Both the position numbers and the translations under genes were made by a program. From an uncultured Bacteroidales bacterium (GTDB lineage Bacteria; Bacteroidota; Bacteroidia; Bacteroidales; UBA932), in NCBI GenBank assembly GCA_944326365.1, contig CALVDR010000004.1, forward strand, positions 62,001 to 126,000: a stretch of 64,000 bases of DNA. The letters run 5' to 3'. The notes under the pieces were generated by a model, which was not told the origin of the DNA, searched no databases, and saw only the letters and a list, made by a program, of their open reading frames with translations. Positions 41,544 to 61,288 of the stretch are shown piece after piece. Numbering within the stretch: the first letter of the stretch is position 1; each line of letters begins with the position of its first letter.

Positions 41544-43181
41544 TCAGTCAAGATTAGTAGCTTTCTTTACATAAAGTTCCCTTGCGCTGTATCCGGTTGC
41601 TCCGTCCAAGGCGGTATTTGTAAGGAACCTTATCTTGAGTAAATGTCCCTTGGCTTTCCCGCTGACAAGAACAGAGTACGGCACATCCACCCATTCAGTA
41701 TCATCCGGACCGGTAGAAACAGGCAGATTATCCTCCTTGGCTATGAGAGTCCAGCTGTTCTCAGACGGATTGGCATAATTCTCATAATCATAATCTTTCC
41801 TGTAGGCTCCATAGGCCGGGGTGAATTTGAACTCGGCATCATCCGAAACATAGAACTCCACGCCTTTGAGATGGCCCTTAGGGCTTCCGCCATCATTGCG
41901 GGTCCAGTTTACAAGCCCGATGGAAGCGACATTGCAGGACTCTCCCAGATCCACAACCAGTGCAGCCTGGCGGCGACGGCCTCCAAAGGAATGATAATCA
42001 GGATATGTATAGTCGTAATCGTCAAATCCGCTTTCCTTACAGTCCGCGTTAGGTTGAACAAGCGTTCCGCCAATTCCGTGAAGAGATGTCCAGCCTGAGC
42101 TTGTGCCTCTGAGAAGGAGTTTAGGGCTATATTGGCCCATTTGACTTGAGAAATTTTCAGCAGAATGATCATATTCTCTAGTTGAGCCATACAACGAGTA
42201 TTTTGTTGAGTATTCGTTCTCTTCACCTTTTTTTCTCTCCACACCACTGTTATTGCCATTGGCAACATTGATTTTGTTGTATGCATAGCAAGAGTTGCAG
42301 AATTTGATAGTGAAGCCGGACTCAGTCATCTGCTCGGTCTCTATTCCCACCAACTTGCAAGCAGCCATAGGGCAGATAGCGGATCTTCCAACCGTAAGGC
42401 TTGCACCGGTAGATATTGCAGGAATTTCCGGCCCATCGGCCATAGTCACATTGATTGTGATACCCTTGGTATAGTCCCTTGCAGGCAGGAAAATATAGAA
42501 CGGAGTCGGCTCCCCACTCAATGCCACACCCTCACCGCAATCTAAAGTAACTGTGGTGGTGGAAGGAGTCGTAAAAGTAAAGGTAGGTTCACCATCAGCC
42601 GCCATGCTCACTGAAACAGTGCCGGCAAGAGCTTCACCATTGTTACCCGTGACAGCGATGCTCTTGACTGAGCCAGAACCTGTGAATTGAAGTTTGAGAC
42701 ATCCAAAGACATTCCTGAAACCAAAATTCCCGGTTGAGGAAACAGCCATCATAGGAGCACCAGGACCGAAACTGCCTGGCTTATATGTCTGAATCTCAGG
42801 CACAGTTGTGACGACGGTGAATGTTCCCTCGTTTTCGATGCACAGCGCTGAAGCGGAATAAGGGTAGAATGCAACATTCGCACTGAGAGCTGTTCCACTT
42901 TCCCCCTGCGCCCCGGCAGCTTCAAGAACTGTCTCTGCGCCAGCAGATTGAGCTCTATACTTTAACAATTGAGTATTCTTATTGAATACAGCAACTTCGT
43001 CACCTGCATTCCATACAACGGTATTACTCTCACCAAGCTCAGTCTTGGTACTGAGAACTTCCATTCCGGCAGAAAATACAGGATAATTATCTGAATTGAA
43101 ATGAGTTGATGCTTCCTTATTGCATCCAAAAAACGCAACGACTGAGGAAAGCAAAAAGATTGTGGTATTTTTTTTCATCAT
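41544..43181 (-). CDS. Fimbrillin-like lipoprotein with C-terminal F5/8-type glycan-binding domain
   Basis: This 545-residue probable surface lipoprotein (signal FLLSSVVAFFGCNKE, lipobox Cys at about residue 20) has a fimbrillin-like N-terminal half with the usual TKTELGESNTVVWNAGDEVAVF pattern (seen as TKTELG, then VVWNAGDEVAVF) and NVAFYPYSA. The C-terminal part from about residue 285 (FCNSCYAYNKIN ... VASIGLVNWTR ... VEFYVSDDAEFKF ... LLKIRFLTN) is a discoidin/F5-8-type C domain. It is clearly related to the C-terminus of the next gene upstream (43379-45514). It is probably a surface glycan-binding protein of the PUL. A 44-codon gene lies 37 bases upstream. It is nine bases from the three-module enzyme gene downstream. 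Confidence 0.75.
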   Translation of the reverse strand: MMKKNTTIFLLSSVVAFFGCNKEASTHFNSDNYPVFSAGMEVLSTKTELGESNTVVWNAGDEVAVFNKNTQLLKYRAQSAGAETVLEAAGAQGESGTALSANVAFYPYSASALCIENEGTFTVVTTVPEIQTYKPGSFGPGAPMMAVSSTGNFGFRNVFGCLKLQFTGSGSVKSIAVTGNNGEALAGTVSVSMAADGEPTFTFTTPSTTTVTLDCGEGVALSGEPTPFYIFLPARDYTKGITINVTMADGPEIPAISTGASLTVGRSAICPMAACKLVGIETEQMTESGFTIKFCNSCYAYNKINVANGNNSGVERKKGEENEYSTKYSLYGSTREYDHSAENFSSQMGQYSPKLLLRGTSSGWTSLHGIGGTLVQPNADCKESGFDDYDYTYPDYHSFGGRRRQAALVVDLGESCNVASIGLVNWTRNDGGSPKGHLKGVEFYVSDDAEFKFTPAYGAYRKDYDYENYANPSENSWTLIAKEDNLPVSTGPDDTEWVDVPYSVLVSGKAKGHLLKIRFLTNTALDGATGYSARELYVKKATNLD

Positions 43182-43218: not shown

Positions 43219-43353
43219 TTAGAGAATCCAATCGTTTTCAGCATCCTCTTGGTATGGATCAATAAAGTTCGAAGTGGAACTCTGGAGAAACGATGAGCTG
43301 ACTGTAAACTCAATCAAACTAAATTCTGGAGTCATGTAATGGTTTGTTTCCAT
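43219..43353 (-). CDS. Very small protein (44 aa) with Y-x-x-P-E motif
   Basis: An ATG at 43353 opens a 44-codon frame ending in TAA at 43219. It starts METNHYMTPEFSLIEFTVSS and ends in an acidic, Trp-containing tail (DAENDWIL). It fills most of the 197-base gap between the GH43 gene and the fimbrillin-like lipoprotein gene. It lacks a signal peptide and charged clusters other than the tail. It resembles the 52-codon frame at 57786-57944: both have Y-x-x-P-E, then a hydrophobic alternating stretch, a Ser-rich middle, and an acidic end with W. Both lie just upstream of a fimbrillin-like lipoprotein gene. Function is unknown; I recognise it only as a type of tiny ORF seen in Bacteroidales. Confidence 0.6.
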   Translation of the reverse strand: METNHYMTPEFSLIEFTVSSSFLQSSTSNFIDPYQEDAENDWIL

Positions 43354-43378: not shown

Positions 43379-45514
43379 TTATCTTATGCTTGTACATTCT
43401 TTTACATAAATTTCGCTCAGAGAGAAGAGCGTAATTGCGCCAGCATCGAAGGTACCGAGCAGCCTTATCTTCAAGTATCTTCCCCTGGAAGCATGAGTCA
43501 GTAACTGCTCCTGAGACATGTTCAACCACTGAATTGACTGACTTTGAGCAAGATTATCGTTTGCTGCAATCCTTGTCCAGCTGTTCTGCGAAGGATTGCC
43601 ATATTCGGAATAATCATATCCGGATACACCATTTGCTGGCGTAAATATGAATTCAGGGTCATCAGAAACATAGAATTCAACACTCTTGGTATCTGTCACC
43701 GCTGCGTTGTTCGGACGTCTGTTCAGCAAACCAACCGCAGCTACATCTACAGATTTCTGCATATCAATCACTATGGAAACTGCACAACGGCGGCCCTTGA
43801 AAGCATGGAATTCCGTAAAACTATAATCATAGTCATCCGTACCGTTTTCAACTCCTGACCTGTCTTGAACAAACGGCTCCCACCATTGGAAGTTGGAGTA
43901 CCATCCCTTGTCCTCTAATCCGTCTACAAGGAACTGTGCCTTGTAGGTTTCAGCCAGTTTCAATTCACCAGTTGCACTGCCATCGTGCTCATAAGCCCTT
44001 GAGCTGTTGCAGAATAGAATCTTGAACTGAGTCTGATCCATATAGGCAAAATCAAATTTGCCAGGCTTGCTGACCACCAGATAAATAGGATTATCAATCA
44101 ACTCCAGTTTCGAATCGGATGAAACCTCAACCTTGACAGGAAGCAGATATTGTACATCCTCTTCTATTACGGTTCTGTCAATGGTAATGACAATATTTCC
44201 AGACAATGTTCCGGAACCCAGCTGTGCAGGTGCAACAGAGTAAGCATCAGAAGGGAGCAACGGATATGATGTCCTTCTTTCAATGTTATACTCATCACAA
44301 AGATCCTGAAGACCGGTCTGAATCATATCAACACTTACGCTGGCAGAATAGCTGTCACAGAAGACAATGTTGACAGGGATATTGTAAGCAGTCTTATCTG
44401 CTTTGAGTGTCAATTTATCTTCTTTACCCTCAACCAATACGGCTGGCTGCTGGACCACCTTATCAAGTTTACCGGCACTTACAGATATGTCCTTGATTAC
44501 AAGGTGAGGCTTGCCGTTCCTGGAAAGTGAAGGATTCAGGTGATAAGCCAGCTTCAAATTGCCATCCAGATCCTCGAATATGCATCCGTGACCTCCGTCG
44601 TAGTTGTTGACTATGCCGGCATGCTCCCAAGGTCCCTCGATTTTGCCTGAAGTCGAAACAGCCTGTCCGATTGAATACCATTTCTGGTCATCGTTACCCG
44701 GCTGTTTTGCATAATGGGACCAGATGCAGATAAGCTTGCCGGAAGATGGGTCGCGCCAAAGCATAGGGGCATCTGCAATGTAAACCGCCTTGCCATCACG
44801 CACATCCACCGCACAGGCATATTTGGAGTCCGAACCATTGAACAGACGAACAGGTTCTCCTACAGTAGATGTAAGGTCATCATTCATTTTATAGGCATAT
44901 ACACCTGCATCATAGCCTTTTTCGGTTATTTCTGTTGCAGCTTCCCTACAATAGACAATCCAAGGAGTCCCGCTTTCATCGACATACAACGACCCGTCAA
45001 TGTTCTGAGTATCAGTCTCGGGAATGAGATTCACGTGATCTCGGTTCAAAGGCCATATAGCCCCTTCAGGACCATAGTCACCTTTGAAAACAGTGTTGGA
45101 TTTTGCGCTGGTGAAGTCATCTGCACTGCCATTTGCAGAAACTGCGGTCGCTATGCAATAGACATTATCCTTCCACCTGTACATATCGGCAGCCCAATAT
45201 GTATAGTTTGAATAAAGTCCACTGGTATTATATACATTCCCAAGATTCCTCCACATATTCAAGTCACGGCTCTTGTACATCTCGATACCTCCAGCAACGA
45301 CTACAGGACAATAATACGCCTGTTTCTCTTTGTCCACATAAATGAACGGATCCCTATATTCCATTTCCTCAGTACGGATATTATACAGAGACTCGGAATC
45401 ATTGACTTCCGTAGGTATGACCGTATAGTTCTCCGAATAGCATCCGCAGAGCAATGCCATATATGATACGGTCAACAGACCTTTTTGTATTTTGTTGTAA
45501 AAATTTGATTTCAT
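43379..45514 (-). CDS. GH43-like glycosidase lipoprotein with DUF1735-like and F5/8-type domains
   Basis: This 711-residue lipoprotein (signal VSYMALLCGCYSE, lipobox Cys at about residue 25) has an N-terminal five-bladed propeller with the GH43 base in EYRDPFIYVDKEKQAYYC, the second Asp in NIDGSLYVDESGTPWIVYC, and an APMLWRDPSSGKLICIWSHY segment in the catalytic-acid position. Here the preceding residue is Asp (IADAP) rather than the commoner Glu. Residues about 370-490 look like a DUF1735-type beta-domain (VFCDSYSASVSVD). The C-terminus from about residue 495 is an F5/8-type domain closely related to that of the neighbouring lipoprotein (VEFYVSDDPEFIFTP). Surface-anchored side-chain removal is the probable role. 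The gap to the FAD oxidoreductase gene is eight bases. Confidence 0.78.
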   Translation of the reverse strand: MKSNFYNKIQKGLLTVSYMALLCGCYSENYTVIPTEVNDSESLYNIRTEEMEYRDPFIYVDKEKQAYYCPVVVAGGIEMYKSRDLNMWRNLGNVYNTSGLYSNYTYWAADMYRWKDNVYCIATAVSANGSADDFTSAKSNTVFKGDYGPEGAIWPLNRDHVNLIPETDTQNIDGSLYVDESGTPWIVYCREAATEITEKGYDAGVYAYKMNDDLTSTVGEPVRLFNGSDSKYACAVDVRDGKAVYIADAPMLWRDPSSGKLICIWSHYAKQPGNDDQKWYSIGQAVSTSGKIEGPWEHAGIVNNYDGGHGCIFEDLDGNLKLAYHLNPSLSRNGKPHLVIKDISVSAGKLDKVVQQPAVLVEGKEDKLTLKADKTAYNIPVNIVFCDSYSASVSVDMIQTGLQDLCDEYNIERRTSYPLLPSDAYSVAPAQLGSGTLSGNIVITIDRTVIEEDVQYLLPVKVEVSSDSKLELIDNPIYLVVSKPGKFDFAYMDQTQFKILFCNSSRAYEHDGSATGELKLAETYKAQFLVDGLEDKGWYSNFQWWEPFVQDRSGVENGTDDYDYSFTEFHAFKGRRCAVSIVIDMQKSVDVAAVGLLNRRPNNAAVTDTKSVEFYVSDDPEFIFTPANGVSGYDYSEYGNPSQNSWTRIAANDNLAQSQSIQWLNMSQEQLLTHASRGRYLKIRLLGTFDAGAITLFSLSEIYVKECTSIR

Positions 45515-49098: not shown

Positions 49099-52000
49099 TT
49101 AGAATGTTATTTCAGCGCCTAAAAGTACAGTGGTTGTAATAGGATAAGAAGTTGGCCCGACTTCCGGATCCCATCCCTTCGGATATTTGCTTATCGAGAA
49201 CAGGTCGGTAGCAGTTGCATAGAATCTAAGCTTCTTGATGAATGCCTTTTTGGTAATGTGTTCTGGCAAGGTATAGCCGAGCATCACGTTCTTCAACCTG
49301 AAATAAGCACCGTTGAACAACCAGTAATCGGACAAGCAATACACCCCGCTTTCATTTGCATAGGTAAGGCGAGGATATTGTGCCTGAGCATTCTCCTCAG
49401 CTGTCTTGAAACTGCTCCAGTATTTGCCATCAATCACGGCAGGGATGTTACCATAATTGGCAATCAATGGCTTGACCATCATATTGGTCATCCTTGATTT
49501 CTGAAGGCCCACTCCCTGGAACGACAACGACAAGTCAATACCCTTGTATCCGAAATTCAAGTTACCTCCATAAGTGAACCTTGGCAGAGAACCGCCAAGA
49601 AGCACACGGTCATACTCAGGTGTGATCTTTCCATCCGGAACACCATTCGGACCGGAGATATCCTTGTACTTTATATCACCAAGACTGGTCTGGTTGTTAA
49701 GCTTCGGCGAATAATCCAAGTCTTCCTGAGTCAGGAACAATCCTTCTGAAACATAACCATACCACTCATTGAACTCACTTCCTTCGAGTTTCACCTGATC
49801 TCCAAGGAACTGTGTACCTCCAAGATTTCCCATCTCAGACTTGAAATCCGAAAGGTTGAAATTGACGCCATAGAAGAAATCTCCCACATTGTCCTTCCAT
49901 CCAAGGCTCAACTCAAAACCATTTGTCTTCATATCTCCCGTATTCTTTTCCGGATTGCCGTAGCCGACATAGTCCGGAATCTCCAGAGCCAGAAGCATAT
50001 CCTTGGTCTTCTTGTTGTAATAATCAGCTGTGAGGGACAGACGGTTATTGAGGAAATACATATCCAAACCGACATCTATCGACTGGGTTGTCTCCCAGGT
50101 AATGTTCTCGATGACATAATTTCGCTGGGCTGCCGTCATCTCTTCGACAACTTCTCCGCTGCTGTTGACAAACAGGCCACGACCTGTATTGATCAAAGAC
50201 TGGTATGGATAATTACCTATACGCTCATTTCCCAAAGTACCGTATGAAAGTCTCACTTTCAAATACGAAATCGAATTTTTCCCAAGTTTGAAGAACGGTT
50301 CCTCGCTCACTACCCATGCACCTGATACAGAAGGAAACATTCCCCATCTGTATTTCTTTGCAAATCTGGAAGAACCATCCCACCTGCAGTTCGCCTGAAG
50401 CAGGTATCTGTTCTTGTAATTATATGACACACGTCCAAAGAAAGACCTCAGTGCTGTCTCATAAGCATTTCCAGAGTTGAAAACCAGATTGTTCGGAGCT
50501 ATGTCCATATATGGGAAATCGCTCAATTCAAATTTATCCTTTGTGGCAGTAAGGCCCTCATAGAAATAATAGTTCGACTCGTAACCTGCCATCACTCCGA
50601 TGGTATGACCGCCGAACGTCTCGTTATAATTCGCAAGGAACTGCACATTGGCACTCTTGCTGTCATTCCTGTATTCAGACAGCTTGGTTGATGAAATCAG
50701 ATAGCCTCCTACAATGTCAGGGTCCTCAGCCGTGGTCCAAGGGAGTTCTTTCTGGAAACTCTTCTGCTTGGTTATTACAAAGTTAGGGGCAAATACCGCC
50801 GAGAAGCGAAGTGAAGGTATAGGTGTGATGTCAACCTGCGCCTTACCAGCAATCTGAAAGACGTCCTTTTTATTGAAACCGCCGTAGTTGACCAGGGCAT
50901 AGATATTTGCGCCCTTGCCATCTGCAATGCGCCCGTCATCCCAGGTAGCGGCATAAATTGGAGGAAGGTATCTTACCAAGGTATATGGATCCGTCACAGG
51001 ACTGTTAGCCTCTTTCTTGTTGAAAGAGAAGTCTATGCTGGCATGCAGCCACTTGGTAATGTTGATATCATTATTGACTTTAGTCATGAAACGGCTGAAA
51101 TCCAAGCCGTTATACAAACCATCTGTCTTGTTGTATGTGAAAGATGCATAGGTTTGAATAACATTTGAACCTCCCGAAATATTTACCCTGTGCATACACC
51201 TCAAAGCTGCATTGGACAAGACGAGATTATGCCAGTCAGTATTAGGATAGTTATTCGGATCGGTCTTATTGTATTCCAACCAATTTTCAACCTGGTCCTG
51301 TGAATAAGTCTGATACAGTCCACCTGAAGGGTTGTCATTGTAACGCAATTCATTTGTCATCTCAAGATACCTTGTCAGATCGACAAATTCAACGTTTGAT
51401 GTAGGGATTTCATAGCCATATTCAACATTATATGATATGTTGATACGCTCCTTGGAACCCCTCTTGGTTGTTATCAGGATGACACCCGCAGCAGCCCTTG
51501 AACCATATATGGAAGCCGAAGCTGCATCCTTCAGTACAGAAATGTTCTCAATGTCCTCCGGGCTGACAGATGACATGTCGCCGGGAACACCGTCAATAAT
51601 CACAAGAGGAGTAGAGTCTCCGATTGTGGTGATTCCCCTGACCTTGATGTCACCTCCTTCATTACTGGGCTCATTGCTGCTCCTTGTAACAGTGACTCCG
51701 GCCATGGCTCCCTGAAGGGATGCAGCCACAGAATTGGATTTTCTGTCGGCAATTGTCTTTCCATCAACTGCACCGACAGATCCTGTAAGGTCAACTTTTC
51801 TCGCGGTACCATATCCGATAACTACAAGTTCATCCAGCAAATTGGTGTCCTCCTGGAGTACGATCTCTACATACTGTTTCCCTGAAGTTTCAACTTCCTT
51901 GTCCAAGAAACCAAGATAGGAGGCCACTATCACGGCTCCTTTAGACGGAATTTCAATGCTGAAAGATCCGTCCACACCGGTAATGACTCCATTGGTTGTC

Positions 52001-52455
52001 CCTTTGATAATGACGCTGGCACCTATCAGTGGTTCCCCATCAACTCCTGTTACCTTTCCTTTGACAAGAATCGACCCTACAGCTGTACTGCCCTCACCAG
52101 CGGCTTTTGGAGCCTCTGAACTATGTTTCATTATCTTGATATATCTTCCTTCAATATGCCATTTGACATCCTGATTGGCAAGGATTTTCTCAAGAACCTC
52201 AGATACAGCGACATCCTTAAGATTCAAAGAAACATTCTCGGACACATCTATATCAGATGTGTTGTAGACAAACAGGTAACCCGTCTGAGACTCAATGTCT
52301 TTCAAGGCCTGACCTACTGTAGCTGAAGAAGATACTATGGTCACCTTCTTCGTCTGAGCTCCCAAATCTGTAGAGCACAGCATCAATGCGACAACAATTC
52401 CTATTACGGAAACATTACGCATAACCGACAAAAAACGGTTGATACAAAAACTCAT
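49099..52455 (-). CDS. SusC/RagA-family TonB-dependent transporter with STN signalling domain (PUL 1)
   Basis: This 1118-residue outer-membrane transporter takes up oligosaccharides using TonB energy. After the signal peptide there is an STN domain at about residues 35-110 (QALKDIESQTGYLFVYNTSD ... ILANQDVKWHIEGRYIKIMK). This is the part that contacts an anti-sigma factor. A carboxypeptidase-like beta-domain follows (VKGKVTGVDGEPLIGASVII), then the plug with LDELVVIGYGTARKVDLTG and VRGITTIGDSTPLVIIDGVP, and the 22-strand barrel ending in an aromatic residue (LLGAEITF). The STN domain matches the FecR gene 168 bases upstream, giving a trans-envelope signalling set. A candidate ECF promoter lies in that gap. 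Confidence 0.95.
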   Translation of the reverse strand: MSFCINRFLSVMRNVSVIGIVVALMLCSTDLGAQTKKVTIVSSSATVGQALKDIESQTGYLFVYNTSDIDVSENVSLNLKDVAVSEVLEKILANQDVKWHIEGRYIKIMKHSSEAPKAAGEGSTAVGSILVKGKVTGVDGEPLIGASVIIKGTTNGVITGVDGSFSIEIPSKGAVIVASYLGFLDKEVETSGKQYVEIVLQEDTNLLDELVVIGYGTARKVDLTGSVGAVDGKTIADRKSNSVAASLQGAMAGVTVTRSSNEPSNEGGDIKVRGITTIGDSTPLVIIDGVPGDMSSVSPEDIENISVLKDAASASIYGSRAAAGVILITTKRGSKERINISYNVEYGYEIPTSNVEFVDLTRYLEMTNELRYNDNPSGGLYQTYSQDQVENWLEYNKTDPNNYPNTDWHNLVLSNAALRCMHRVNISGGSNVIQTYASFTYNKTDGLYNGLDFSRFMTKVNNDINITKWLHASIDFSFNKKEANSPVTDPYTLVRYLPPIYAATWDDGRIADGKGANIYALVNYGGFNKKDVFQIAGKAQVDITPIPSLRFSAVFAPNFVITKQKSFQKELPWTTAEDPDIVGGYLISSTKLSEYRNDSKSANVQFLANYNETFGGHTIGVMAGYESNYYFYEGLTATKDKFELSDFPYMDIAPNNLVFNSGNAYETALRSFFGRVSYNYKNRYLLQANCRWDGSSRFAKKYRWGMFPSVSGAWVVSEEPFFKLGKNSISYLKVRLSYGTLGNERIGNYPYQSLINTGRGLFVNSSGEVVEEMTAAQRNYVIENITWETTQSIDVGLDMYFLNNRLSLTADYYNKKTKDMLLALEIPDYVGYGNPEKNTGDMKTNGFELSLGWKDNVGDFFYGVNFNLSDFKSEMGNLGGTQFLGDQVKLEGSEFNEWYGYVSEGLFLTQEDLDYSPKLNNQTSLGDIKYKDISGPNGVPDGKITPEYDRVLLGGSLPRFTYGGNLNFGYKGIDLSLSFQGVGLQKSRMTNMMVKPLIANYGNIPAVIDGKYWSSFKTAEENAQAQYPRLTYANESGVYCLSDYWLFNGAYFRLKNVMLGYTLPEHITKKAFIKKLRFYATATDLFSISKYPKGWDPEVGPTSYPITTTVLLGAEITF

Positions 52456-52623: not shown

Positions 52624-53568
52624 TTATCTTCTAATCATGATAACCCTTTCATCGATATCGAACTCATAACTGAGGTTCTCTCCCATCAACAGAATCCCCA
52701 TAATGCAATCTATCCCATCTGATATCATGAATTTACATGTTGAACGCCTGTCAAGTATCTCACTGTCTTCAACTTGGAAATCAACCTGAAAATATGCCTC
52801 CAACTTCGCAAATATCTCATGGAAAGAAGCATCTTCAAATGACATTATCCCTCTTCTCCACAACAAAGCATCATGATCAGAAAATTCTGAGGTAACAAGT
52901 TTATCACCAACCAATTCTGCCTTCGTATTCGGAGTCAGGACGAGATTGACATCATTGTCGTCACAGACCTCAACCTGCCCATTTACAAGGACAACAGACC
53001 ATTCAGGTGCATTTGTGTAGGAGCAAACATTGAATTCTGTTCCCATGACCTTCACATTATAACTCTTCGTGTGAACGACAAAAGGCTTCTCAGTACTTTT
53101 TGTGACAGAGAAATAGGCTTCTCCATCAAGCTTCACCTCACGTGTGCGGCTGTTGAAGCCTTCATAAACATCCAAACGGCTTCCGGAATTAAGCCATACG
53201 TGAGTACCGTCACCCAATGCAAGTTCCGTCCTCTGCCCCATGGGAACAAAGACAGACATTGACGGAGCCTTATGGCCAAACAACAAAAATGAAACAGAAA
53301 AACCAACAAGGAGGAGAATAGATGCAGCCACGGACCAGGAGGCAATCCTTCTAACAATGGTTTTCCTATTCTGCGACCTGCTCTCCTGAGCATCTATACC
53401 GGCGTTCCATATCACCTCATCATTGAGACGACGTAAAACCTCAAGTTCTTTCATGTTGGCAGGATCTTCATGAGCCCACCGCATAACCTCCTCTATCTGA
53501 GAATCAGTTGCGTTGCCACTGATATATTTGTTCAACAATTCATCATTTATTCTATTATCCGCATTCAT
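52624..53568 (-). CDS. FecR-family anti-sigma factor
   Basis: This 314-residue single-pass inner-membrane regulator holds the ECF sigma factor inactive until the SusC STN domain signals. The cytoplasmic N-terminal helical part (LLNKYISGNATDSQIEEVMRW) binds sigma. The transmembrane helix is VAASILLLVGFSVSFLLFG at about residues 76-94. The periplasmic FecR domain shows VPMGQRTELALGDGTHVWLN and VMGTEFNVCSY, and the C-terminal DUF4974-type part contains FHEIFAKLEAYFQVDFQV. An esterase gene lies between this gene and its sigma factor, which is not the usual adjacent order. Confidence 0.92.
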   Translation of the reverse strand: MNADNRINDELLNKYISGNATDSQIEEVMRWAHEDPANMKELEVLRRLNDEVIWNAGIDAQESRSQNRKTIVRRIASWSVAASILLLVGFSVSFLLFGHKAPSMSVFVPMGQRTELALGDGTHVWLNSGSRLDVYEGFNSRTREVKLDGEAYFSVTKSTEKPFVVHTKSYNVKVMGTEFNVCSYTNAPEWSVVLVNGQVEVCDDNDVNLVLTPNTKAELVGDKLVTSEFSDHDALLWRRGIMSFEDASFHEIFAKLEAYFQVDFQVEDSEILDRRSTCKFMISDGIDCIMGILLMGENLSYEFDIDERVIMIRR

Positions 53569-54704: not shown

Positions 54705-55253
54705 TTATAGAAATATATTTAACACCAATAATAACAATATAATAAGGTAATCTTTCAATGCAATCTTCAATGCTTTCAGAACTTTTGATATATGGTATTC
54801 GATGTTCTTTTCCGAGAGTCCCATCGATTCCGCAATTTCGCGATTCTTCTTCCCATAAACCCTGCTTTTAATAAAAATGCTCCTGGTTCTTGAAGGTTGT
54901 TTGTCAAGAACAGTGTTGACAATTCCCTGTATTTCTCTGGAAACTATGGAATCATGTTCATATCTGTCCAGGGATGATATCTTGAAATCGAGATCCTGAA
55001 TTTTCAACAAAGACACCTCTTCAAGAGACTTCTGCTTGATTCTCTGATGTTTCAGATAGTCCAGACATAGATTTCTCACAATGACATATAGCCAACTATG
55101 AACATCTGCATCAGGATTTTCTTTCAGAAATTTCCATAGTTTAATCATGGAATCCGCCGTAATATCCTGAGCAACCATATCATCATTGACATACGATCTT
55201 GCAAAAGCAATGATTCTTCCATAATACTTTCTGTAGTACTCGTCAAATTTCAT
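54705..55253 (-). CDS. ECF RNA polymerase sigma factor (FecI-like, Bacteroides type)
   Basis: This 182-residue sigma-70-family factor should direct transcription of the adjacent susC operon. Region 2 is visible as MVAQDITADSMIKLWKFL with WLYVIVRNLCLDYLKHQ. Region 4 is the C-terminal helix-turn-helix GKKNREIAESMGLSEKNIEYHISKVLKALK. The last 14 residues (YLIILLLLVLNIFL) are strongly hydrophobic, a tail also found in other Bacteroidota ECF factors, possibly for membrane or FecR contact. A consensus -7 box lies at 55368-55375, with a palindrome between it and the start codon. Confidence 0.93.
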   Translation of the reverse strand: MKFDEYYRKYYGRIIAFARSYVNDDMVAQDITADSMIKLWKFLKENPDADVHSWLYVIVRNLCLDYLKHQRIKQKSLEEVSLLKIQDLDFKISSLDRYEHDSIVSREIQGIVNTVLDKQPSRTRSIFIKSRVYGKKNREIAESMGLSEKNIEYHISKVLKALKIALKDYLIILLLLVLNIFL

Positions 55254-56301: not shown

Positions 56302-57759
56302 TTATTCTGCAACGGCAGCTTCTGTCTGGTCTATCATTCCCTGGATTTCAGTCACATTGTTGAAGAAACCGATCCAGTAGACCTTGTACTGAGGCGCGGC
56401 AACAGTTTCTTCTTCTGGAACATTTGAAACTTTCAGATCCGCTATTTTGAACTGGAATTTGACACCTGCGTCAAATATATGATAGTCAAGAGTATTTACC
56501 CATCCGCTGTTGGTAAAGTCTCCGAGCATATCCCAGTACCACACACGGACATTCTTGATGTCTGTTTCTAATTCTGCAGTCCTTTGGTTGTTGCTTTTGT
56601 TATGCCATTGTCCGAGGCTGCCGACATCGAATTTTATGTTACCCTTTGATATGGATGCCTCCTCAGGAACAGTAATATTGCCTTCCTGAACTACATACTT
56701 GTAGTCTGTCATCATGGCTACATAACGATAGGTGCCGAAATTCTGGGTGAAACCTTTGTCGTAGATAAGGTCCGCCCTGAAATTGTAATTTGTCTCGTCT
56801 CCGTTGTTGCCCATAGTCACAACGGCATATTCAGCATTTGTTGTTCCGTCAATGCTTCCTCCCTTTTCTATAGTATTGAGAGTCCATCCGCAGTCACCGC
56901 CATGTGCGGAACCGAACTCCCATATATTGTTTCCTCCAAGCAGTTCTTCTGTATTAAGATTGATTGCAGGAAGATCAATGAATGCCCCGGATGTGAGGTC
57001 TACCGGAGTAATTTTACGCTTGTAATAGCTGTAAGACGTATTTCCGAGTGCACCTTCCGGCATTGCTGTCTTGGCTTCGAGAGTAAGAGATTTTGCTCCC
57101 TCAGCTGTAACAACGAAATATACGTCAAACGGCTCGTCTGACAGCTGGACAGGAGATGACCCGTACTGTGAAGAATATGTTATCGTGTACTGAGGGTTGT
57201 TGTTTATAAGAGATGCATTGTTAGTGACATGAAGCCTGACTTCGGTAAGCAGGATATCACCTGTCAATGAGTAATGTACTACGGCAGATCCGGCCTCGGC
57301 TGCAGAGAATGTGATATAATCACCTTCAATGCTTGTGCTCTGGAGGAGTACCGGGATTCTGTCTGCATACTGTCTTCCAGGTACAGTGAATTCATATCTG
57401 CTTTCTTCTTCATTGTATGTGTACGCATCATACGGATAATATGCAGCAGACAGGGTGAATGTTTCCGGTACGTCAGTCTTGATGATGGTATTGCCGCCGT
57501 TCTCAGGGACGGAAACTGTTCCCTTGTAAACGTCAGTGCCGTCAGTGAGGGCTATTTCGTCACCGTCCTGGAAATATGCAGGGATGGTGTTTTCTCCAGG
57601 AGTGCCGAAAGCGACCTTGGTCGAAGCACCGTCCTCGATGGTGGCGGTATATTCACGGTATACGAGATTCTGTCCCTCTTCCGGAGCTGCGATCTCTTCC
57701 TTGTTGCAAGCCGTCATGGCTATTGCCGCCATGGCTGCGAATATGAATGTCTTTTTCAT
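56302..57759 (-). CDS. Fimbrillin-like surface lipoprotein (PUL 2)
   Basis: The start at 57759 (MKKTFIFAAMAAIAMTACNKEE) gives a lipoprotein with its lipobox Cys at residue 18 and 485 residues; the frame start at 57786 lacks a leading signal. The N-terminal half has the fimbrillin-like pattern ASTKVAFG, then YFQDGDEIALTDG and LSAAYYPYDAYTYN. The C-terminal part from about residue 285 (NNIWEFGSAHGGDCGWTLNT ... VRVWYWDMLGDF ... KVYWIGFFNNVTEIQGMID) ends in a segment similar to the C-terminus of the Ig-like lipoprotein at 59627-61204, with a W/FF-x-N/KTF ending. A surface glycan-binding role is likely by position. It is the last gene of PUL 2 and follows the 52-codon small gene by 26 bases. Confidence 0.7.
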   Translation of the reverse strand: MKKTFIFAAMAAIAMTACNKEEIAAPEEGQNLVYREYTATIEDGASTKVAFGTPGENTIPAYFQDGDEIALTDGTDVYKGTVSVPENGGNTIIKTDVPETFTLSAAYYPYDAYTYNEEESRYEFTVPGRQYADRIPVLLQSTSIEGDYITFSAAEAGSAVVHYSLTGDILLTEVRLHVTNNASLINNNPQYTITYSSQYGSSPVQLSDEPFDVYFVVTAEGAKSLTLEAKTAMPEGALGNTSYSYYKRKITPVDLTSGAFIDLPAINLNTEELLGGNNIWEFGSAHGGDCGWTLNTIEKGGSIDGTTNAEYAVVTMGNNGDETNYNFRADLIYDKGFTQNFGTYRYVAMMTDYKYVVQEGNITVPEEASISKGNIKFDVGSLGQWHNKSNNQRTAELETDIKNVRVWYWDMLGDFTNSGWVNTLDYHIFDAGVKFQFKIADLKVSNVPEEETVAAPQYKVYWIGFFNNVTEIQGMIDQTEAAVAE

Positions 57760-57785: not shown

Positions 57786-57944
57786 TCAGTCCCAGTTGTC
57801 GTAAAGCTGATAGCTGAGATCGTTGATACTGGCCGCATCTTCTGCACCGGATGTGGCGAAGCCTTTCTCTGTCTGCACTGTGGCGACAGTCATTTCAGGA
57901 GCGGCATACACTCTCTGAAACGTTGATTCTGTGGTTGTTTTCAT
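57786..57944 (-). CDS. Very small protein (52 aa) with Y-x-x-P-E motif
   Basis: An ATG at 57944 opens a 52-codon frame ending in TGA at 57786. It begins MKTTTESTFQRVYAAPEMTV and ends SYQLYDNWD. It is directly upstream of the fimbrillin-like lipoprotein gene. Like the 44-residue frame at 43219-43353 it has Y-x-x-P-E near the N-terminus, then alternating hydrophobic residues, a Gly/Ser stretch (EKGFATSG) and an acidic tail with W. No signal peptide is present. An 18-base perfect palindrome lies 9 bases ahead of its ATG. Its function is unknown; possibilities include a leader peptide, a peptide precursor or a chaperone for the lipoprotein. Confidence 0.6.
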   Translation of the reverse strand: MKTTTESTFQRVYAAPEMTVATVQTEKGFATSGAEDAASINDLSYQLYDNWD

Positions 57945-58092: not shown

Positions 58093-59466
58093 CTACTCCT
58101 GATAAAACAGAAGCGTCCCCCATCCGATCTGGTCGAAATTTGAAGTCGTCTCCGCTCCGTCCTTATTGTTATATCTGCTGTCTCCTGCCCCGCAGTCTCC
58201 CGTCAGCTCCCCGTCTGTGTATCGAAGCTGTTCGGCGAATTGCTTTGTATAATGCAATTGCTTGTCACTCAGTCCTTCAGACTTGTAGTGGCTGTAGATC
58301 AGGTCCCAGCACGGACGGATGGTTCCACGTCCGTCAGAAGACACAGCCGTATGTATGGCGCCGTGTGTCTGGTTCCGGCATTCGCAACCAGTGCAATAGC
58401 TGTATTCGGTGAACGGCATTTCTACAGTCGGATAAGGATTGCTGTTGTACATCGCAGTGTATTCGAACATCGAAAGCACTAAATTGTCCTCCATGCCCCA
58501 GAAATCGATGCCGATATTCCATGCCATCTGGCACAATTCGGCGCAAACGGCAGAAACGAGAGTCGCATGTCCCTGGTCTCGCCCGGACTCCATGCATTGT
58601 GCTATAGGGGTGGCAGTCAGGCCCGCAGGATCTGCCACTGGAGCATACGGAATCATATTGTGCAGTGCACCGCTGCCTTCACCCTCACGGAAATTCTGAT
58701 ATACGAAGTTTATCATTTCCACATTTTCAGTGTAAATGCCGATAGCGAGGATGGATGCCAGATTGGCCAGTTCCCAGTTCGACCAATAGTGAAGGTTGCA
58801 GACATTTTCTCCTCCATGCGTGGTGATGAATTCGTGGTTTATCGGATACCAGAGAGTCGTCATCCAGGTCTTGAATGCGTTCTGGTCAGCCTCTTCCCAG
58901 CCGTCAAAATCACGGAGAAGTTCTGCCGCATTGGCGAACTGGTAACCCTGGAATCCGGCTGCAAGATTGAAGTCCGCATCGTTGGATGTGATCTTAGTAC
59001 ATGTGGCTGCCCAGTCGTTGAGAATCTTCACGGCTGTGGTCGCATAATCCCTGTTCCCGGAAATGTGATAGCGGAGAGCCAGTTCGAAAGCCGCTGCGGC
59101 ATCCCGGCCGGCATTGAGTACATTCTGGCTGCTTACTCCGGTTCCGGCAGGATCACCACGGACAAGTATTTCCACTGGATTTGCCGTATATCCTTTTACA
59201 GCATATTTGCTGTCGCAAAGCTCCAGCCAGCATTTGTATGCGGGGTCGGTCTCATCAGCAGCTGCAACTGCCGCTTTTGCCCTGTTGATGTCATCCATTG
59301 TCACATAAGCGCACGGGTGGTTGAATTCGTAAGTCGTCGGATAGACGAATTCTTCTTCCTCCTTTGGAGTAAGGTCCACCTCGCCTTCATAGAGGAAGTC
59401 GGTGCAGGCTCCGGCACAGAGAAGTGCCGGAACTGCAGCCAATATCGTTATCAAAGTCTTTTTCAT
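58093..59466 (-). CDS. Alginate-lyase-family (alpha/alpha toroid) lipoprotein, PUL 2
   Basis: The start at 59466 (MKKTLITILAAVPALLCAGAC) gives a lipoprotein signal and 457 residues; the frame upstream to 59571 runs through non-coding palindromes. The mature protein is an alpha-helical toroid like the alginate lyase superfamily (HPCAYVTMDDINRAKAAVAA at the start, NLAAGFQGYQFANAAELLRD, then NLHYWSNWELANLASILAIG and MESGRDQGHATLVSAVCAEL). The N-W-x-N and the GRDQGHA segments hold the residues placed at the active site in relatives. The polymer cut is probably uronic-acid rich, but related toroid enzymes include hydrolases. It is placed between the Ig-like and fimbrillin-like lipoproteins of the second PUL. 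Confidence 0.78.
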   Translation of the reverse strand: MKKTLITILAAVPALLCAGACTDFLYEGEVDLTPKEEEEFVYPTTYEFNHPCAYVTMDDINRAKAAVAAADETDPAYKCWLELCDSKYAVKGYTANPVEILVRGDPAGTGVSSQNVLNAGRDAAAAFELALRYHISGNRDYATTAVKILNDWAATCTKITSNDADFNLAAGFQGYQFANAAELLRDFDGWEEADQNAFKTWMTTLWYPINHEFITTHGGENVCNLHYWSNWELANLASILAIGIYTENVEMINFVYQNFREGEGSGALHNMIPYAPVADPAGLTATPIAQCMESGRDQGHATLVSAVCAELCQMAWNIGIDFWGMEDNLVLSMFEYTAMYNSNPYPTVEMPFTEYSYCTGCECRNQTHGAIHTAVSSDGRGTIRPCWDLIYSHYKSEGLSDKQLHYTKQFAEQLRYTDGELTGDCGAGDSRYNNKDGAETTSNFDQIGWGTLLFYQE

Positions 59467-59516
59467 GTTTTCTATATCTTTATGATATTCCTTTTTTCGC
59501 TCTGGGAGATTTCTAA

Positions 59517-59536
59517 TTTCCAGGAATTCCTGGAAA
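59517..59536. promoter_or_regulatory. 20-base perfect palindrome upstream of the lyase gene
   Basis: TTTCCAGGAATTCCTGGAAA is perfectly self-complementary and lies 50 bases before the lyase ATG. Neighbouring bases 59560-59620 contain further short GC-rich hairpins (for example CCCATTTTATGGG on the minus strand). It could be an operator or an RNA processing hairpin within the operon. Confidence 0.5.
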
Positions 59537-59626
59537 AGGACGGCAGAAAGCGAACACCATTGCGCCCGCATAGGGAGGGCCCATAAAATGGGAGGGGTGT
59601 GAGCGGTGCCGCCCCTTTCCAGAATT

Positions 59627-61204
59627 TTATTCGTATGTGATTCCCGTTTCGGCAGACCATTCCGTCAGGAAGGCATTCAGATCGGCCTCGCTTGCGAAAG
59701 TCTTGAACCAGAAGAACCTGTACATGAGAGAACTTGCGTCAGGAGCAGTCTCGATATCTGCATATTTTATCTGGAATGTCGAGAATGTGCCGACAGTCCC
59801 GTCAGGGAACGCTCCGCCGGTAGCGAAGTTCTGGGTATCCAGGTCATAAACGAAGATGGCAGAACCGTCGCTGCAGAGATATTTCTTCTTCCACTTGTTG
59901 TTGCTGCCGCCGAAGTTGCCGGAGAACTTGGTCCCGTCTTCGGTATTTCCGCTGGTGTCCAGATTAATGTTTCTCTTGGAAATGCCTTCGATACCCATGT
60001 CCACGAAGTCATCGAACCTGAAACAGATTATAGGGAAGTCCTTGGAAATGTATGTAGTCTGCGTTCTCTTGAAGTCGCCTCTGGCCTTTGTGGCATTCTG
60101 CTGGTAAGGGATGATTTCCACATAGTTTTCTTTCCCGCCTTCTTTCCAAGTGACGGTCTGTCCGTTGTTGGCTCTGTCCCACAGCAGATTGTTCTCATCT
60201 GCAAATACATCGTTGTAGTATCCAGCAGGGATATTCAGAGTGAACTCGGCTGATTTGGCGAAGCCGTCCCCTGCCTCTCCGTCCTCAGGACAGATGGCGG
60301 AAATACGCACGCTTCCGTACTTCTTGAACGTCACGACACCGTTTTCCACAGTGGCTACTGTCTCGTCGCTCGAAGTCCAAGTGATCTGTGACAGGGTGCA
60401 TTCGGAAGGATTTGTCTCGAAATCTACCGTATAGTTCAAATCACTCATGGAGAAGATGTCATCGGCTTCGGGAGCATCGGTAAACCTGATGCCCAGAGGC
60501 ATGATGATCTGGTCCACATAGATGTCAAAAGTCTTGGTTGCCGGATTCTCGGCATCGAGTGCGGTAGCCGTGATGGTCACTTTCCCGACAGATACGCCTG
60601 TCACTACTCCGGATATCGGGTCTACGGTGGCGACAGCTTCATCTCCTGAACTCCAGAGCACGCTCCTGTAGGTGGCTTCGGCAGGGGTAATGGCAGCAGT
60701 CAGTGTCATCGTTTCCCCTATGTAGCATGCAGGAAGCCCGTCCTTGGTCATGGTGGCATCGCTGGTGATTTCAATGCCTGTAGCCGGGACGGCGGTTTCC
60801 ACCACCTTTATATGAAGGGTGGCTGACGCCAATGTATTCACCGTGACCGGTGAAATGGTTATGTTGGCCTCACCTGCTTTTACTGCTGTGACAAGCCCCG
60901 ATTCATCGACCGTGATCACGCTTTCGTCCGAAGGCTCCCATTTCATTTCAGGGAAAGTGATCTCTGAAAGGTCTTCCGGCACAGTGGTGAATTCAAGCTG
61001 GATGGACTCGCCCTTTATCATCGGCAGGGTCCGGGAGCCTGTTTGCGAGTCAATATAGATCTTGGCTTCGTTTTCCGTATCCATCACGATGCTGACAGAT
61101 TCCGTCAGCGTAGCCGGGTCCATGATCTCCAGCTTTTCCTCCGTGCAGGAAACGACCGGGACCATGATAGCCGCTATGGATAAGTATTTCAATATCTTGT
61201 TCAT
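59627..61204 (-). CDS. Surface lipoprotein with bacterial Ig-like (BIG2) domains, PUL 2
   Basis: The start at 61204 (MNKILKYLSIAAIMVPVVSC) gives a lipoprotein signal and 525 residues. Three Ig-like BIG2 repeats follow, recognisable by the phrases EPSDESVITVDESGLVTAVK, WSSGDEAVATVDPISGVVTG and WTSSDETVATVENGVVTFKK, each an alternation typical of the fold. The C-terminal 200 residues (DVFADENNLLWDRANNGQTV ... PIICFRFDDFV ... RFFWFKTFASEADLNAFL) form a separate domain with a W/F-rich end like that of the 56302-57759 protein. The position after SusC and SusD is where surface glycan-binding proteins are found. The Ig repeats would act as a spacer holding the C-terminal binding domain away from the membrane. 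Confidence 0.8.
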   Translation of the reverse strand: MNKILKYLSIAAIMVPVVSCTEEKLEIMDPATLTESVSIVMDTENEAKIYIDSQTGSRTLPMIKGESIQLEFTTVPEDLSEITFPEMKWEPSDESVITVDESGLVTAVKAGEANITISPVTVNTLASATLHIKVVETAVPATGIEITSDATMTKDGLPACYIGETMTLTAAITPAEATYRSVLWSSGDEAVATVDPISGVVTGVSVGKVTITATALDAENPATKTFDIYVDQIIMPLGIRFTDAPEADDIFSMSDLNYTVDFETNPSECTLSQITWTSSDETVATVENGVVTFKKYGSVRISAICPEDGEAGDGFAKSAEFTLNIPAGYYNDVFADENNLLWDRANNGQTVTWKEGGKENYVEIIPYQQNATKARGDFKRTQTTYISKDFPIICFRFDDFVDMGIEGISKRNINLDTSGNTEDGTKFSGNFGGSNNKWKKKYLCSDGSAIFVYDLDTQNFATGGAFPDGTVGTFSTFQIKYADIETAPDASSLMYRFFWFKTFASEADLNAFLTEWSAETGITYE

Positions 61205-61288
61205 ATTCATTCTTTTGTTTATTGTCATTTCTTTTTTTCCGTGGATGCAGAGAGTCCGGGATTGCAGGATAGTGCTGGCGAGCACCAT

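Follow-up and report, generated by a model that had tools for sequence, protein, structure and literature searches.

Small YxxP proteins upstream of fimbrillin-like lipoproteins in Bacteroidales, probable precursors of a system related to linear polyphosphorylated peptides

Linear polyphosphorylated peptides (LPP) were described for lppA-K-B-S-D-N of Paenibacillus alginolyticus; the authors call them restricted to Bacillota, and their biological role is unknown (PMC13381572, Nat Commun, May 2026). In this system, an RRE binds a YxxP motif, a kinase polyphosphorylates core Ser3 and does not accept Thr, and leader cleavage by a signal-peptidase-like enzyme requires the RRE; an exporter and an NTP transferase are also conserved (PMC13381572). 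The paeninodin-like or Bsf-type clusters of phosphorylated lasso peptides likewise include an HprK-like kinase, a B1 RRE, and an NTP transferase (PMC10368454). Our literature search returned no description of such a system in Bacteroidota: the string “Bacteroid” is absent from the main text of PMC13381572, and the system is not described in the passages retrieved from a Bacteroidales RiPP mining paper. A search for literature on small proteins upstream of fimbrillins also returned nothing.

Here, we report on two small frames in a 64,000-nucleotide window (the whole stretch of DNA that was analyzed) from an uncultured Bacteroidales bacterium. The original prediction placed a 44-aa frame at 43219-43353 and a 52-aa frame at 57786-57944, and both exist there exactly, on the minus strand. 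We conclude that they are very probably RiPP-type precursors, part of a Bacteroidales system related to LPP in which precursors scattered over the genome are processed in trans and are partnered by surface lipoproteins within polysaccharide-utilization loci (PULs). The relevant features of the window are as follows.

43219..43353, minus strand: 44-aa predicted precursor, METNHYMTPEFSLIEFTVSSSFLQSSTSNFIDPYQEDAENDWIL (held-out profile E 7e-7; 37 nt upstream of the lipoprotein gene)
43279..43338, minus strand: conserved 20-residue block Y6..S25 of the 44-aa precursor (family-wide fixed spacing)
43222..43278, minus strand: variable acidic tail of the 44-aa precursor, ending in NDWIL, the predicted exported core (by the tail composition of the family)
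41544..43181, minus strand: 545-aa cognate fimbrillin-like lipoprotein (lipobox FFGC near the start; gap of 37 nt; aligns with the 14 other partners)
43379..45514, minus strand: PUL gene preceding the 43219 frame, GH43 plus BT_3987-like_N (Pfam PF04616, E 4e-19)
57786..57944, minus strand: 52-aa predicted precursor, MKTTTESTFQRVYAAPEMTVATVQTEKGFATSGAEDAASINDLSYQLYDNWD (held-out profile E 1.4e-8)
57849..57908, minus strand: conserved block Y13..S32 of the 52-aa precursor, YAAPEMTVATVQTEKGFATS (spacing as in 119/125 members)
57789..57848, minus strand: variable acidic tail of the 52-aa precursor, ending in DNWD, the predicted exported core (by tail composition)
56302..57759, minus strand: cognate fimbrillin-like lipoprotein with a C-terminal DUF4979 (Pfam PF16351, E 8e-11; N terminus aligns with those of the partners), counted from its MKK start, its ORF being open from 57786
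58093..59571, minus strand: alginate lyase family PUL gene preceding the 57786 frame, 148 nt away (Pfam PF05426, E 2e-12)

The small frames had been said to end 26 to 37 bases before a lipoprotein gene, and we measured 37 nt for the 43219 frame and 26 nt to the MKK start for the 57786 frame. The proposed PUL context also holds. The same-strand run around the 43219 frame comprises SusC/SusD-like and GH43 genes (SusC/SusD recognized by eye from translations), and the frame lies inside this run, with the GH43 gene ending 25 nt before it. The run around the 57786 frame comprises SusD-like (by eye from the translation) and alginate lyase genes. A second DUF4979 lipoprotein gene with three Big_2 domains (59627-61288, minus strand) shares a PUL with the 57786 pair and has no small gene of the family upstream. 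Elsewhere in the window, genes resembling a FecR-like anti-sigma factor and an ECF sigma factor (by eye; 52624-53568 and 54705-55253, minus strand) adjoin the SusC-like gene at 49099-52455, which suggests that the PUL containing that gene is under sigma/anti-sigma control.

Searches of the small proteins against Pfam, NCBIfam, PHROG, and the PDB returned nothing significant. They belong to a family with 15 copies in the 2.78-Mb source genome, both window frames included. Starting from five members, a model detected ten more in this genome with genomic context unused, and a purified model scored all 15 at E 4e-13 or better, with the next match above 0.5. As these earlier models had contained sequences from the source genome, a held-out profile was based exclusively on 71 sequences of other genomes. 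It recovered 15/15 members (E 2e-11 to 1.3e-6) among 6417 stop-to-stop frames, with the first non-member at E 0.85 and the best reversed-sequence control at E 0.93, indicating that the reading frames are real. The original prediction had argued for real genes and had proposed a family search and a test of selection. The family comprises 125 distinct members across genomes, and the case for genes now stands on held-out recovery, on a lipoprotein context in 15/15 source-genome copies, and on codon evidence at the protein level. In the family, the conserved Ser is encoded by AGY in 69 members and by TCN in 50, and the Pro is encoded by all four codons; this synonymous variety shows that selection acts on the protein.

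The family block, Y-x-x-P...E-x-G-F-[AC]-x-S, is ungapped from Tyr to Ser over the 125 distinct members. The Y-x-x-P-E motif that had drawn attention to the two frames survives in part: Y-x-x-P occurs in 125/125, Tyr (position 0) and Pro (+3) being fixed through the selection of sequences, but the Glu is found in only 40/125 and is not invariant. Position +5 is hydrophobic (I/V/M/L in most members) and is followed by an alternation of E and V up to +12, E at +13 (107/125), G/V/I at +15, F/I/L at +16, A/C at +17 (114/125), and S at +19 (119/125), where Thr was never seen. By analogy with LPP, such a nearly absolute Ser without Thr is what would be expected of a phospho-acceptor. The 43219 member is divergent, with S-S-F-L-Q-S where the family has x-G-F-[AC]-x-S, and so departs from the core motif at G and [AC]. 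After the Ser come tails of 9 to 37 residues (average, 17 aa) that contain no Cys, are negatively charged in 99% of cases (mean net charge, -4.4), and, in 114/125 members, have an aromatic residue within the final six positions. Based on this anatomy, the Y6..S25 block is predicted to combine an RRE-binding leader, a processing region, and the phospho-acceptor Ser. Near position 40880 of contig C2 of another genome (G032; locus L067), two tandem small genes precede one fimbrillin-like lipoprotein gene; their tails start nearly alike (SGYGNDTE...), and in the second gene YIKSKS replaces YxxP. The family's size, its invariant Y...P...[AC]xS block, and the processing machine described below go beyond the original prediction.

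Pairing with a lipoprotein is nearly universal. In the source genome, 15/15 members are immediately followed by a fimbrillin-like lipoprotein gene, which starts -14 to +37 nt from the stop of the small gene. Over all genomes, including this one, a lipoprotein gene starts within 200 nt after 114/123 distinct members (median, 15.5 nt), with no recognized lipoprotein behind the other 9/123; at least 92 of the 123 precede a lipoprotein with the fimbrillin pattern. As a baseline, 110/373 ORFs of at least 200 aa at the same loci carry a lipoprotein signal. The N termini of the 15 source-genome partners all align with one another, in keeping with the fimbrillin-like N terminus originally proposed, and 4/15 match PF13149 (Mfa_like_1) at E<=0.01 (best, 1.6e-6), the partner of the 57786 frame not being among them. 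We recognized no fimbrial assembly genes beside the partners. Searching the PDB with a profile of the lipoprotein N termini yielded no useful match, and an AF2 model of a window lipoprotein made with no alignment reached a pLDDT of only 34. Within genomes, similarity between tails tracks similarity between lipoproteins (p about 0.001-0.004), a small effect, whereas leader similarity shows no correlation (p about 0.4-0.6) and full-length similarity is also not significant. Such a pattern would be expected if one machine reads all leaders while each tail is matched to its own lipoprotein. Gene order and the weak tail correlation suggest that the lipoprotein may cooperate with the peptide. Other partners occur in G173: at L218:304-5198, a YxxPE small gene overlaps the end of the gene for a 1576-aa C10 peptidase with a Spi inhibitor domain and a T9SS sorting tail, so that the partner is a secreted protease and not a lipoprotein. 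At L219:7993-12116, a YxxPE small gene lies ~18 nt downstream of the gene for a 1310-aa secreted protein that is metalloprotease-like by eye.

The route to the processing machine ran through family members with no lipoprotein behind them. In G173, one such member opens the gene run HPrK - S26 - PqqD - NTP_transf_5 - ABC, and homologues of this set (31-39% identity) occur together in the source genome as PqqD - ABC - HPrK - S26 on contig C5. We found no precursor near the C5 machine, and a looser regular expression applied to orphan machine loci gave no convincing local precursor. The PqqD-like protein matches PF05402 (E 4e-13), and its top profile match by sequence is TfuB1 (E 3.5e-7). Its AF2 model (pLDDT 88) shows an RRE fold, with TbiB1-leader complexes as the best PDB match (TM 0.75) and the lasso B1 protein 6jx3 next. 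Kinase residues H140, G155, G158, G160, K161, S162, D180, and D181 are invariant in 37 loci and match the catalytic residues of BsfK (PMC10368454). The S26 peptidase has invariant Ser45, His84, and Asp104 in 39, with a Ser-to-His spacing of 39, as in LppS; it matches TIGR02228 at E 1e-8, which is under the curated cut-off of that model. The ABC exporter matches ABC_tran (E 6e-32), with an MsbA model among the best NCBIfam matches. A PF14907-type NTP transferase is present in G173 (E 4e-33) and in many other machine loci; none was found within the 16 kb read around the source-genome machine. Among the named genomes in the scan for the machine, the nearest is “Candidatus Cryptobacteroides merdigallinarum”; cultured species that carry the machine include Bacteroides oleiciplenus, Phocaeicola sartorii, and P. 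faecalis. Many Alistipes loci with kinase, peptidase, and exporter (L340-L412, most of the Alistipes machine loci) have no nearby PqqD match with the profile used; their RRE may be diverged or encoded elsewhere.

Precursors and machine are linked both locally and across genomes. A YxxPE gene lies within about 17 kb at 14/42 machine loci (P about 1e-10), and a family member is present at 19/80 named machine loci. All ten of the linked loci that were read have the precursor-lipoprotein pair among or adjacent to the machine genes, as in the order PqqD-NTF-ABC-precursor-lipoprotein-HPrK-S26 at L298, which suggests that the lipoprotein was probably part of the ancestral set. Among 120 genomes of the taxonomic family, the kinase occurs in 49/51 with precursors and 11/69 without (p 2e-20); in the order outside that family, it occurs in 16/20 with precursors and 2 of about 270 without (p 9e-21). 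These samples cover 25 genera and the co-occurrence is phylogenetically clustered, so the p-values overstate independence, but both states are found within genera. The exceptions in one direction are G072 and G087, which have precursors and no detected kinase, and in the other, 11 genomes with a kinase and no detected precursor.

Several other explanations were weighed against this evidence. It is extremely improbable that the frames arose by chance in intergenic sequence. Their shortness and lack of database matches would agree with such an origin, but 15 paralogs and about 110 more members with protein-level conservation and a fixed context argue otherwise, and the held-out profile test contradicts the idea directly. 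The original prediction allowed for peptide precursors, leader peptides, or partners of the lipoprotein. RRE-guided precursors with a genetic lipoprotein partnership are the reading that fits, and a regulatory role is disfavored. Regulatory leaders (uORFs) would control the lipoprotein by translational coupling or stalling, the peptide itself being functionless. Coupling would be possible across the small distance to the lipoprotein gene (median, 15.5 nt), and strong Shine-Dalgarno sites are little used in Bacteroidota, which also counts in favor. Even so, a 20-residue motif of fixed spacing is kept at the protein level despite changed codons, it lies N-terminal of another 9-37 codons, and its presence follows the peptide-processing machine across genomes. 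Moreover, at L218, L219, and L220 the small gene lies downstream of a secreted-protein gene, where it could not act as a uORF on that gene. We therefore regard the uORF explanation as quite unlikely.

An unlikely but somewhat better alternative is that the small proteins stay unprocessed in the cytosol and act as binding partners or chaperones of the cognate lipoprotein until it is exported, the machine having other substrates. The near-universal pairing and the correlation of tail with lipoprotein would fit, but four observations point to processing: the YxxP motif is of lasso type, the RRE is structurally closest to a leader-peptide complex, co-occurrence across genomes is strong, and operons are shared with the machine. 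The YxxP leader, lasso-type RRE, kinase, nucleotidyltransferase, and ABC exporter are also those of paeninodin-like clusters (PMC10368454, PMC13381572), and so lasso peptide precursors were considered. This identity is very improbable, since peptidase B2 (PF13471) is absent from the 98.5%-complete source genome and from 40/41 genomes of the genus, homologues of the B2 and the asparagine-synthetase-like macrolactam cyclase of G013 are absent from the 80 named machine loci, and the family lacks the Thr(-2) pattern. With no PF13471 in the source genome and no B2 or cyclase at machine loci, the lasso assignment was dropped: the absence of B2 indicates that this is not a lasso system. A locus that does look like a true lasso-type cluster exists in the same genus (L231; G013:C1:487000-503000), with B2 (PF13471), a nucleotidyltransferase, an ABC exporter, and, by eye, an asparagine-synthetase-like cyclase and a YcaO-like protein; no small frame there matches YxxPE.

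We thus return to RiPP-type precursors as the preferred reading, the more so because the enzyme set matches the one that defines LPP in Bacillota. Each small gene would be cotranscribed with its PUL and its cognate fimbrillin-like lipoprotein gene. The Y-x-x-P leader would be bound by the lasso-type RRE protein (PqqD fold) encoded on contig C5, whose putative substrates the small proteins are, and the conserved Ser of [AC]-x-S would be phosphorylated by the HprK-like kinase. The Ser-His-Asp archaeal-type signal peptidase would then cleave at F-[AC]-x-S or directly beside it and so release the leader. A cut after [AC] (-3 G/V, -1 A/C) is favored as the best fit to signal-peptidase rules, with cuts after Ser or before [AC] as alternatives. 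A short acidic peptide of about 20 aa would be exported by the MsbA-like ABC exporter and may work outside the cytoplasm with the coencoded surface lipoprotein, one machine serving the 15 dispersed precursors in trans. More tentatively, with somewhat less than even confidence, we propose that every fimbrillin-like lipoprotein of a PUL has a small, phosphorylated, exported acidic peptide of its own, as a dedicated ligand, cargo, or signal; that a single machine makes up to 15 of these in trans; and that this constitutes a previously undescribed Bacteroidales surface system.

The LPP enzyme set is now seen across Bacteroidales, cultured gut species included, together with dispersed precursors and a constant surface partner. 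This combination makes function testable, as surface glycan handling or signaling in PULs, and the cultured carriers make experiments feasible. If each lipoprotein does have a dedicated peptide, this would be the first biological role for the LPP class. A large class of unannotated small genes is also exposed, most of which would be missed by RiPP searches that demand a precursor beside the enzymes.

Compared with the systems outlined at the start, the Bacteroidales genes are closest to LPP, and the sequence comparison suggests a variant of an LPP-type system, as distinct from proven LPP. Shared with LPP are a discrete lasso-type RRE, an HprK-like kinase with peptide-kinase catalytic residues, an archaeal-type (SipW-like) signal peptidase I with Ser-His-Asp, an MsbA-like exporter, the lack of B2, and, in many Bacteroidales loci, the NTP transferase. 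The precursors are likewise short, with a conserved N-terminal YxxP...S and a highly variable C terminus. YxxP, the hydrophobic residue at Y+5, and the conserved Ser are common to both leaders, but the block here reads YxxPxVEVIEVxVExGF[AC]xS (Ser at Y+19) against YxxPxVLxHQxIxFETxxS (Ser at Y+18) in LPP, whose HQ and FET are missing. With the paeninodin-like and Bsf-type lasso peptides (PMC10368454), the family has in common a YxxPxL leader, a B1-type RRE of TbiB1/TfuB1 fold, and a peptide kinase, but no B2 was found, a signal-peptidase-type protease takes its place, and a linear product is expected. The partner lipoproteins resemble Mfa_like_1 (PF13149) in the lipobox followed by a T[KR]T...W..GD.I pattern, whereas they are often longer, carry additional domains at the C terminus (DUF4979, Fib_succ_major), and, in the window, are located in PULs. 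LPP is a Bacillota system with one to three precursors inside the cluster, located in capsule loci. The family described here belongs to Bacteroidales, with up to 15 dispersed precursors per genome, an orphan machine, PUL locations in the window, and, unlike LPP, a fimbrillin-like lipoprotein paired with each precursor.
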